From Thermoplasmata archaeon (GTDB taxonomy: Archaea > Thermoplasmatota > Thermoplasmata > Lutacidiplasmatales > UBA184), in the NCBI GenBank assembly GCA_030037265.1, contig JASHRQ010000072.1, positions 1-32,505 of the forward strand: a stretch of DNA of 32,505 nt, written 5' to 3'. Positions 10,910 to 22,384 of the stretch are shown piece by piece. The notes under the pieces are model-generated. The model was given only the letters and a program-made list of their open reading frames with translations. It did no database searches and was not told the DNA's origin. Position 1 is the first letter of the stretch, and each line of letters opens with the position of its first letter. Position numbers and translations under genes: made by a program.

Positions 10910-11031
10910 ACCGCCCTAATGCGTCCCGTGCGACGTCCCTCGCCATGGACTGGGCGGCCGGTCCACTTCAATCGGCCAGCGCGAATTTGCCGAAAGCCTC
11001 AAAGAGCCGGCCCGATAGTCGCCGTGGGCGC

Positions 11032-11133
11032 GCTCCCGTAGTCTAGTGGTCAAGGATAGGGGCCTCTCGAGCCCCTGACGCGGGTTCAAATCCGGACGGG
11101 ACGTCCCGGCCGGTGAAAGTCCCGCCGGGAGCA
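11032..11133 (+). tRNA. tRNA-Glu (anticodon CTC) with T-loop intron
   Basis: Acceptor GCTCCCG/CGGGAGC, D stem GTCT/GGAT, anticodon stem GGGGC/GCCCC with loop CTCTCGA, T stem GCGGG/CCCGC, T-loop TTCAAA|T, discriminator A, no encoded CCA. The 3' halves pair fully only if 11091-11119 is removed. Confidence 0.9.
11091..11119 (+). other. 29-nt tRNA intron at position 59/60, with bulge-helix-bulge
   Basis: Outer helix GCGGG/CCCGC, 3-nt bulge AGT (11118-11120), central 4-bp helix TTCA(11085-88)/TGAA(11114-17), 3-nt bulge AAT (11089-91), inner helix CCGG(11092-95)/CCGG(11110-13). Confidence 0.88.
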
Positions 11134-11208
11134 CGTCCTCTTCCCGCCGGACCTCACGAGGAGGTAGCAGAGTCTTTGGCTGCGACCGGTTCCGGCGCGG
11201 TAGCCGGG

Positions 11209-12081
11209 GTGGGTTCGCGGTTAAGCTCCCGTGCGCCTCTGGCGCGCGGGGGAACCGTCCTGGACCGCCGCTACCTCATTGTGGTCAGCGAAGCCGACGC
11301 GGTCGCCGTGGAGATTGCCCGTCACTGGGGGACCCCTCCGTCGACGGGCGAGTTCGTCGACGGGACTCCGCTCCGATCCCTCTCCGACGCCGTCCTGCTC
11401 CTTCGCCGCCGTCCGCTGCACGTCGAGGACTCGGAGCTCGGCGCCCAGCTGGGGTCGGTCGTGCCCGACCTGCCGATCGTCTTCCCATCCCGCCACCGGA
11501 GCGAGAGCCGGATCGCCTGCGTAACCGTGCACGCGCTAGGCAACCTCGGCGAGGTGGCGGAGCTCGGGGGCGAGCCCCGTCGGGTCGTTCCGGCGGCGCC
11601 GCGGCTCATGGCCGACGCCCTGCGCGAATTCCACGGCGTCGCGGCCACGGTGGGCCTCCCGGCCTCGTACGAGGCGACCCACCACGGTCCGCTGCTCCAC
11701 CAGCCGGCGTTCTTCGCCGAGATCGCGGAGTCCGTGCCCCCGGGGCCCCGCGCGACACTCTCCCGCGCGGTCGCGGAGGTGCTGGCGGACCTGGACGAGG
11801 ACCCGGCGGACCGGGTCGCGATCGGCGTCGGCGGGGGCCACTACGCCCCGCACTTCACCGAGCTCGCCCTCGGTCGACGCTGGGCGTTCGGCCACATCGT
11901 TTCCCGGCACGCCGGGGAGACCGTGAACGCCGAGGTCGTGGAGCGGCTCCGGGCCGCCACCCCCGGCAGCGACGGCGCGCTCTTCCAGCGCGTATCGGAC
12001 GCCGACGACCCGGTGTGGGCCGGGCTCGGTCCCCGCCTCCGCGACGCGGACGCCCCGCGCCGCCCCACCGGGAGCGCGTGA
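11209..12081 (+). CDS. dtdA: D-aminoacyl-tRNA deacylase, archaeal DTD2/GEK1 type (start uncertain)
   Basis: RRYLIVVSEADAVAVEIARHW...; motifs YEATHHGP and GVGGGHYAPHF. The listed GTG at 11113 lies inside the tRNA, so the start must be downstream. Confidence 0.88.
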   Translation: MGSRLSSRAPLARGGTVLDRRYLIVVSEADAVAVEIARHWGTPPSTGEFVDGTPLRSLSDAVLLLRRRPLHVEDSELGAQLGSVVPDLPIVFPSRHRSESRIACVTVHALGNLGEVAELGGEPRRVVPAAPRLMADALREFHGVAATVGLPASYEATHHGPLLHQPAFFAEIAESVPPGPRATLSRAVAEVLADLDEDPADRVAIGVGGGHYAPHFTELALGRRWAFGHIVSRHAGETVNAEVVERLRAATPGSDGALFQRVSDADDPVWAGLGPRLRDADAPRRPTGSA

Positions 12082-20768: not shown

Positions 20769-21317
20769 GTGAGCGACGTGGGGTCGGCGGCCGAGCGGAC
20801 CGCGACGGCCCGGATGCTGCTCGACTGCGGCGCCGTGCGGTTCGGGGAGTTCACCCTCACCTCGGGCCAGCGCTCGGACGTGTACATCGACGTGAAGCGC
20901 GCCTGGACCGACCCCGGGAGGCTCTCCACCCTCGCCGGCGCGCTCGCCGGGCGCGTCGGGACCGTGCAGCGGCTCGCGGGGATGGAGCTGGGCGCGGTGC
21001 CCCTCGTCGTCGCCACGGCGCTTCGGGTCGGCCTGCCGTTCGTGATCCTTCGGAAGGCCCTCCGGGACCACGGGACCCGGCAGCGGTTGGAGGGCGAGGT
21101 GCGTCCCGGCGACCGCGTGCTCCTCATCGAGGACGTCGTGTCGACGGGCGGGTCGGCCGTCGAGTCGGTCCACCTCCTGCGGGAGGCGGGCGCGGTCGTC
21201 GAGCGGGCGCTCGCCGTGGTCGACCGCGGGATGGGCGGGGGCGAGCGGCTCCGCTCCGACGGGGTCGCCCTCGAGGCGCTCGTCTCGATGGAGGAGCTCC
21301 GGGGCGGCCGAGCGTGA
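20769..21317 (+). CDS. pyrE: Orotate phosphoribosyltransferase
   Basis: LLDCGAVRFGEFTLTSGQRSDVYIDVKRAWTDP, VGLPFVILRKALRDHGT, GDRVLLIEDVVSTGGSAVESV. Confidence 0.95.
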   Translation: MSDVGSAAERTATARMLLDCGAVRFGEFTLTSGQRSDVYIDVKRAWTDPGRLSTLAGALAGRVGTVQRLAGMELGAVPLVVATALRVGLPFVILRKALRDHGTRQRLEGEVRPGDRVLLIEDVVSTGGSAVESVHLLREAGAVVERALAVVDRGMGGGERLRSDGVALEALVSMEELRGGRA

Positions 21318-22384
21318 CCGGCACGCTGCAGGACGACGCCACGGCGCGGATCGACGACCCGTCGGAGGCCGGCACGGTCTACGGCCGAGGGTTCTTCGGG
21401 ACCTTGGGCTCGGGCGGCCTCCAGCTCGACCGGACCGAGGCGCTCTACCTGGTCGAGATGGGCCGGATCGGCCTCGCCGGGACCCACGGCCGGGCCATCG
21501 GCTGGGCGGAGCTGTTCCGTCGCGCGCTGCGCGCCGAGCCCGGGTTCGGCGTGCGCTACCTGGTGTACCGGGACCTGCGGCAGCGCGGCTACGTCGTCCG
21601 GGCCGGCCCGCCGGGCGTCGCCTTCGCGGTGCTGCCCCGCGGCGGCGTGCTGCAGAAGACCCCGACCCGGTACTGGGTCGACGCGGTCTCCGAGCGCGCG
21701 CCGTTCTCGCTCCGCTCGCTCGAGGACGAGACCGACCGCGCGCAGGCCGCGAAGAAGCAGCTGCTCGTGGGCGTGGTCGACGAGGAGTCCGACCTCACGT
21801 ACTACCGGGTCCGTCGGCCGCGCCCGATGGGCGCGCTGCCAGCCCCGACACTGCGGACGCCCGTCCCCGGCTGGCTCGGCGAGGATCGCGTGCTGGTCTT
21901 CGAACCGGACGGCGTGGAGGCGCTCGGCCGCCAGCCCGCGTTCGGGAGCCGGATCGGGAGTCGGCTGGAGCTGAGCCTCATCGAGGCCGCGTTCCTCGCG
22001 CTCACCGGCCGGCTCGAGCTCCGCGACGCCCGCTCGCACCGACGCGTCCCGGTCGCCGGGCTGCTCCGGCGCGCGCGTCGTCTCGAGTCCGGGTTCGACG
22101 AGCGGCTCGCGGTCTACCGCGTACTCCGGGAGCGCCAGCTCGTCGTCAAGACCGGGTTCAAGTACGGCGCGCATTTCCGCGCCTATCCGCGGAACCCGGA
22201 GCACGCGCACGCCCGGTACCTCGTCCATGCGGTGCCGGACGGCTTCGAGGCGCCCTGGTCGGAGATCGCCCGCGGCGTGCGGGTGGCCCAGGGCGTGCGC
22301 AAGGAGTTCCTCCTCGCGAGGGTCCGGGGACCGCCGGCGACTCCGACGGTCGCGTTCCTCTCGCTCGAGCGGGTCCGTCCCTGA
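21314..22384 (+). CDS. endA: tRNA-splicing endonuclease EndA, two-repeat form
   Basis: C-terminal catalytic block TGFKYGAHFRAYPRNPEHAHARYLVHAV...ARGVRVAQGVRKEFLLARV (Tyr/His/Lys positions present); N-terminal half is a related, apparently non-catalytic repeat. Confidence 0.9.
   Translation: MTGTLQDDATARIDDPSEAGTVYGRGFFGTLGSGGLQLDRTEALYLVEMGRIGLAGTHGRAIGWAELFRRALRAEPGFGVRYLVYRDLRQRGYVVRAGPPGVAFAVLPRGGVLQKTPTRYWVDAVSERAPFSLRSLEDETDRAQAAKKQLLVGVVDEESDLTYYRVRRPRPMGALPAPTLRTPVPGWLGEDRVLVFEPDGVEALGRQPAFGSRIGSRLELSLIEAAFLALTGRLELRDARSHRRVPVAGLLRRARRLESGFDERLAVYRVLRERQLVVKTGFKYGAHFRAYPRNPEHAHARYLVHAVPDGFEAPWSEIARGVRVAQGVRKEFLLARVRGPPATPTVAFLSLERVRP

Follow-up and report, generated by a model that had tools for sequence, protein, structure and literature searches.

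The window, i.e., the whole stretch of 32,505 nucleotides analysed here, is contig 50 of a 1.67-Mb Thermoplasmata MAG, approximately 82% complete, from a soil archaeon. The closest sequences to its splicing endonuclease, EndA, come from Thermoplasmata MAGs, including SubAcS15-31, which has been grouped with Lutacidiplasmatales genomes (PMC9287336), and the nearest named relatives of the genome are members of the Lutacidiplasmatales. The window carries a tRNA-Glu(CTC) gene interrupted within its T-loop and, 10 kb away, the gene for EndA. The features are as follows.

11032..11133, + strand: pre-tRNA-Glu(CTC) gene, 102 nt including the discriminator base, with the anticodon CTC at 11066-11068
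11032..11090, + strand: 5' exon, nucleotides 1-59, the same as in intronless orthologues save for one compensatory anticodon-stem pair
11091..11119, + strand: 29-nt intron at T-loop position 59/60, forming the hairpin TCCGGACGGGACGTCCCGGCCGGTGAAAG
11120..11133, + strand: 3' exon, consisting of T60, the T-stem strand CCCGC, the acceptor strand CGGGAGC and A73
11080..11125, + strand: strict hBHBh' splice motif, GCGGG-TTCA-AAT-CCGG ... CCGG-TGAA-AGT-CCCGC, as read from the sequence
11080-11084 and 11121-11125, + strand: T-stem GCGGG/CCCGC
11085..11088, + strand: exon strand of the central helix, T54 T55 C56 A57, which are invariant T-loop residues
11114..11117, + strand: intron strand of the central helix, TGAA
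11089-11091 and 11118-11120, + strand: bulges AAT and AGT, 3 nt each, at the exon-intron borders
21314..22384, + strand: endA, tRNA splicing endonuclease, 356 aa, two-domain, with two PF01974 repeats, 10 kb from the tRNA gene

An earlier note on this DNA had placed a tRNA-Glu(CTC) with a 59/60 intron at exactly 11032-11133, and this is confirmed, as removal of the intron gives a 73-nt product that is called as tRNA-Glu(CTC) and has a normal cloverleaf. The only difference between this product and an intronless orthologue is one anticodon-stem pair, G-C instead of A-T. Every element of the strict bulge-helix-bulge (BHB) drawn in that note (T-stem, TTCA/TGAA, AAT, AGT and the intron helix CCGG/CCGG) is present, and its cuts, after AA in AAT and after AG in AGT, delimit the 29-nt intron at 11091-11119, at a site that is interrupted in 22 orthologous genes. 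A 4-bp central helix with two 3-nt bulges is what characterizes an archaeal BHB tRNA intron. The position is not the canonical 37/38, one nucleotide 3' of the anticodon, as the intron lies between nucleotides 59 and 60. In the folding program, the BHB fold has an energy of −23.8 kcal/mol versus −24.1 kcal/mol for the minimum-free-energy fold, in which a 7x7 internal loop is slightly preferred.

Standard annotation handles this locus poorly. ARAGORN predicts an uninterrupted 78-nt tRNA-Glu at 11030-11107. The Rfam match to the unspliced locus is contiguous but truncated, contains non-pairs and scores 34.4 bits, compared with 68.2 bits for intronless orthologues. Our covariance model R1 scores the gene at 101.1 bits, with the window sequence being among the nine from which R1 was built. 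The earlier note expected that a naive annotator could miss the gene; ARAGORN does report it, but with a misplaced 3' end. Directly 3' of the tRNA gene, there is a D-aminoacyl-tRNA deacylase gene (PF04414; window 11113-12081, + strand). Since its mechanically assigned GTG start at 11113 falls within the tRNA intron, its true start is probably further downstream.

Among 30 tRNA-Glu(CTC) orthologues, 22 (the window copy included) are interrupted at one shared nucleotide by an intron of 28-32 nt, and the other eight are uninterrupted. All of the carriers belong to genera g1, g5 and g6, while the non-carriers are from g2, g3, g4 and g7. On an endA tree, which leaves out g3 and g4, the trait requires one change with support of 99/92, separating 21 carriers from three non-carriers, and no intron loss is seen across the 21 genomes of the carrier clade. 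The intron sequence drifts between species and its interior is not conserved, while the helix structure is kept: seven of the nine helix pairs have changed on both sides among orthologues, and 97% of intron hairpins are more stable than shuffled sequences at z < −1. The helix covariation score is 0.273 versus 0.111 ± 0.016 for shuffles, a control from which relatedness was not removed, and it falls to 0.104 or less once the register is slid. Because 22 orthologues are interrupted at the same site, the helix covaries and the hairpins are stable, the window intron is not a chance insertion. In many relatives, tRNA-Glu(CTC) and endA lie approximately 10-36 kb apart on one contig with the intron present or absent; such cases are the window (11032-11133 and 21314-22384) and G005:C4, G029:C3, G009:C3, G010:C26, G031:C19, G032:C23, G025:C33, G011:C36 and G006:C44.

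These data bear on two readings in which nothing is spliced. The weak or mis-ended calls of standard tools at this locus could be taken to indicate a decaying tRNA-Glu pseudogene with a random, unspliced insertion. However, each exon is whole and conserved, 22 genomes have their insertion at one shared nucleotide, with hairpins that covary, and a search for another Glu(CTC) gene came up empty. The earlier note had called for this search: no second tRNA-Glu(CTC) gene was detected in the window assembly (approximately 82% complete), and intron-carrying relatives assembled in 5-7 contigs each have a single near-full-identity match to the window tRNA. We consider a pseudogene very improbable. Even less credible is that the contiguous tRNA of ARAGORN (11030-11107) is the functional product. 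A chance CGGGA repeat inside the intron does allow partial acceptor pairing, but this fold requires non-pairs in the T-stem and scores 34 bits below intronless orthologues, and the interior of the intron is unconserved in relatives. Both readings were rejected on the basis of conservation and score.

The interrupted gene is not alone. At least seven further tRNAs of the same genome, Gly(TCC), Ala(GGC), Arg(TCT), Asn(GTT), Asp(GTC), Gln(CTG) and Pro(CGG), carry a T-loop intron, bringing the genome total to at least eight. The same intron sites recur across the window family, where His is also affected; elsewhere in the order and class, further families carry T-loop introns in Lys, Pro, Arg, Gly, Ala, His, Asp and Asn, and further examples were found in other classes of Thermoplasmatota. 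Most of these genomes are MAGs, with the pattern being repeated in independent assemblies. Intronless tRNAs are matched by the covariance models R1 and R2 as well, so intron numbers were not derived from these matches, and each intron cited here was verified by the closing of the T-stem and the acceptor stem. The distribution across Thermoplasmatota is patchy, since the best matches are intronless in several families (e.g., f20, f23, f27 and f31). The statement in the earlier note that it is unusual for euryarchaeal-type genomes to contain introns of this sort agrees with reviews (PMC4033280; PMC4090602), but it is contradicted by this survey for the Thermoplasmatota, and within its own clade the window intron, as a single gene, is ordinary.

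Some tRNAs have a second intron, either in the D-loop (Pro, Lys) or in the anticodon loop. In other Thermoplasmata families, tRNA-Pro and tRNA-Lys genes combine T-loop introns with apparent D-loop introns (L256, L262, L264, L276 and L277), and very short 14-nt T-loop introns (L247 and L265, genome G038; e.g., TGGTATTCTGAAAA) reside in tRNAs whose anticodon loop is interrupted as well. A 13-nt T-loop intron was seen at L339. In the window genome itself, there are apparent canonical anticodon-loop introns in tRNA-Glu(TTC), tRNA-Met and tRNA-Leu(TAA) (G000:C26, C109 and C87; L023, L019 and L025). tRNA-Gly(TCC) has C rather than U at position 33 (loop CCTCCAA) in the relatives L190, L206, L218, L222 and L347.

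A set of 101 distinct T-loop introns reveals how the splice motif is built. Pairing with the intron is formed at position 54 in 100, at 55 in all 101 and at 56 in 99, while the pair at position 57 is formed in 49 of 101, and the fit falls once the register is slid. Opposite G57, intron base −6 is C in 37 of 38 cases; opposite A57, this base is G in 48, T in 12 and C in two of 63. The covariation between R57 and intron base −6 has p=5e-24, uncorrected for relatedness. In about half of the introns, the central helix contains no more than three Watson-Crick or wobble pairs, frequently with an A·G mismatch at 57. As position 57 is often such a mismatch, many T-loop intron motifs are relaxed, and the window copy is of the strict four-pair type. 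The strict 4-bp core proposed earlier is therefore true of this copy, but most of its Glu(CTC) orthologues have TTC/GAA plus an A·G mismatch. Because positions 54-56 pair almost universally and the intron base fits 57, the exon half of the splice motif is the T-loop itself, with the intron supplying GAA and a fitted fourth base.

The enzyme available for these introns appears to be of the alpha'2 type, because two endonuclease repeats are present in one chain; no other PF01974 gene, including a separate beta gene, was found in the genome. A gene for the ligase RtcB (PF01139) is present. The predicted structure of EndA (mean pLDDT 93.6) best matches the splicing endonucleases of M. kandleri and A. 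fulgidus, and the enzyme has the same two-domain chain and fold as the alpha'2 endonucleases of A. fulgidus (2GJW; TM to target 0.86-0.87) and Thermoplasma acidophilum (2OHC; 0.73-0.75). The catalytic region aligns with both, and the CSL/ASL insertion is missing in all three. At that site, the hairpin before the first catalytic-domain helix, the EndA loop YGS-x-x-G is no longer than its counterpart in wild-type A. fulgidus, and the loop-bearing chimera 3P1Y aligns to EndA only with a 7-residue insertion. The insertion, with its conserved lysine, is absent from the window EndA and was found in none of 37 homologues.

Reviews tie the position of an intron to the endonuclease type, with alpha4 and alpha'2 hosts being restricted to canonical 37/38 introns, and an extra-loop enzyme being required for introns that are relaxed or displaced. 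The alpha'2 endonucleases have been called narrow, acting on the canonical BHB only (PMC6379350), and efficient removal of relaxed motifs is held to be limited to (alpha beta)2 and epsilon2 enzymes (PMC6379350; PMC4033280; PMC4090602). T-loop introns are on record for archaea generally (PMC6379350). Whereas the 2GJW and 2OHC enzymes are described as narrow, the window EndA would need to process T-loop introns, approximately half of which have no more than three central-helix pairs.

Taken together, the evidence favors a functional interrupted tRNA-Glu(CTC) that is spliced by the alpha'2 EndA and RtcB, and that represents one of many T-loop introns in Thermoplasmatota. We assign this reading, which includes a single gain of the Glu(CTC) intron in the ancestor of the three related genera, a probability of about 0.95. 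For the processing steps, we infer that: on folding of the transcript, T54-T55-C56-A57 would pair with UGAA close to the 3' end of the intron to form the 4-bp BHB core; the homodimeric alpha'2 EndA (21314-22384) would cut between A59 and U and between G and U60; and RtcB would ligate the exons, freeing the 29-nt hairpin. As every tRNA has a T-loop with which the GAA-type motif of each intron can pair, position 59/60 may serve as a ready-made site for intron gain.

Whether introns are copied from one tRNA gene to another is best seen in G108, a genome of another family. There, an identical 45-nt T-loop intron occurs in tRNA-Gly (L347/L355) and tRNA-Arg(CCT) (L344/L356), and these two are the only copies among 17 genomes of that family; same-genus genomes have one diverged copy in tRNA-Gly, one empty Gly site and one empty Arg(CCT) site. 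The same genome carries an identical 16-nt intron in tRNA-Gln (L288) and tRNA-Arg(TCT) (L346), the latter site being empty in a relative (same-genus comparison loci: L358, L368, L369 and L383). Identical introns in two tRNA genes together with empty sites in relatives indicate, at the sequence level, recent intron copying (transposition), with Gly being the likely donor of the 45-nt intron. These observations argue against an independent origin of T-loop introns in each tRNA, without copying from another tRNA gene. In the window family, however, introns of different tRNAs are no more alike within a genome than between genomes (54 of 500 permutations gave a likeness as high). This speaks for independent origin, which we regard as a real but lesser possibility. 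An all-family test of within-genome intron similarity looked strong but was discarded, being confounded by base composition.

The intron might also be real but retained for an extra role, such as shielding the 3' end of the tRNA against integrating elements, serving as a checkpoint for processing or modification, or releasing a stable circular RNA. The lack of loss among the 21 clade genomes would fit this, and protection against integration was proposed by Randau and Soll, as cited in PMC3293823. On the other hand, the intron keeps its structure while its sequence drifts, and neither a guide-like nor a protein-binding conserved sequence was seen. We consider an extra role unlikely.

Introns of this kind are already known, while the Thermoplasmatota setting is not described in the open-access papers searched, supplementary lists aside. 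The closest parallels are the non-canonical BHB introns of Crenarchaeota, especially Thermoproteales (Sugahara 2008 and Fujishima 2010, as summarized in PMC4033280 and PMC8450103). From those summaries, both sets of introns are short, lie off 37/38 and have BHB or relaxed motifs, and in both many tRNAs are affected, some with two introns; near-identical introns shared between tRNAs were seen here just in G108. In contrast to the crenarchaeal cases as summarized, the Thermoplasmatota hosts are of euryarchaeal type, the introns analysed are at 59/60, and the alpha'2 enzyme is without the crenarchaeal loop. ARMAN-2 likewise has non-canonical introns with relaxed motifs in a host outside the Crenarchaeota, but its epsilon2 endonuclease is a three-unit enzyme with an ARMAN-specific loop (PMC12397907), and the window EndA has neither. 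Intron-rich tRNA sets with non-canonical positions have also been reported for Atabeyarchaeia and Freyarchaeia, which come from wetland soil (PMC11291895); those are Asgard archaea with most tRNAs interrupted, and the T-loop position is not singled out in the available text of that report.

The wider proposal is that Thermoplasmatota possess phylum-scale, still mobile T-loop introns that use the invariant TTC as a universal half-site, so that any tRNA would be open to them as a target, and are processed by a loop-less alpha'2 enzyme, including the three-pair and A·G motifs. We would put the chances of this at even. For annotation of these genomes, the introns mean that tRNA 3' ends are misplaced or scores are low. 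The pairs of donor and empty sites within one genus make intron gain testable, and the shared TTC/GAA core offers a simple possible reason why introns accumulate at 59/60. What deserves specialist attention is the clade-wide pattern together with the loop-less alpha'2 enzyme: either many T-loop introns alongside such an enzyme break the rule given in the reviews, or the T-loop site satisfies the strict requirement in a different way. If the wider proposal is true, relaxed specificity would have arisen along a different path, or the description of alpha'2 endonucleases as narrow would be too sweeping.
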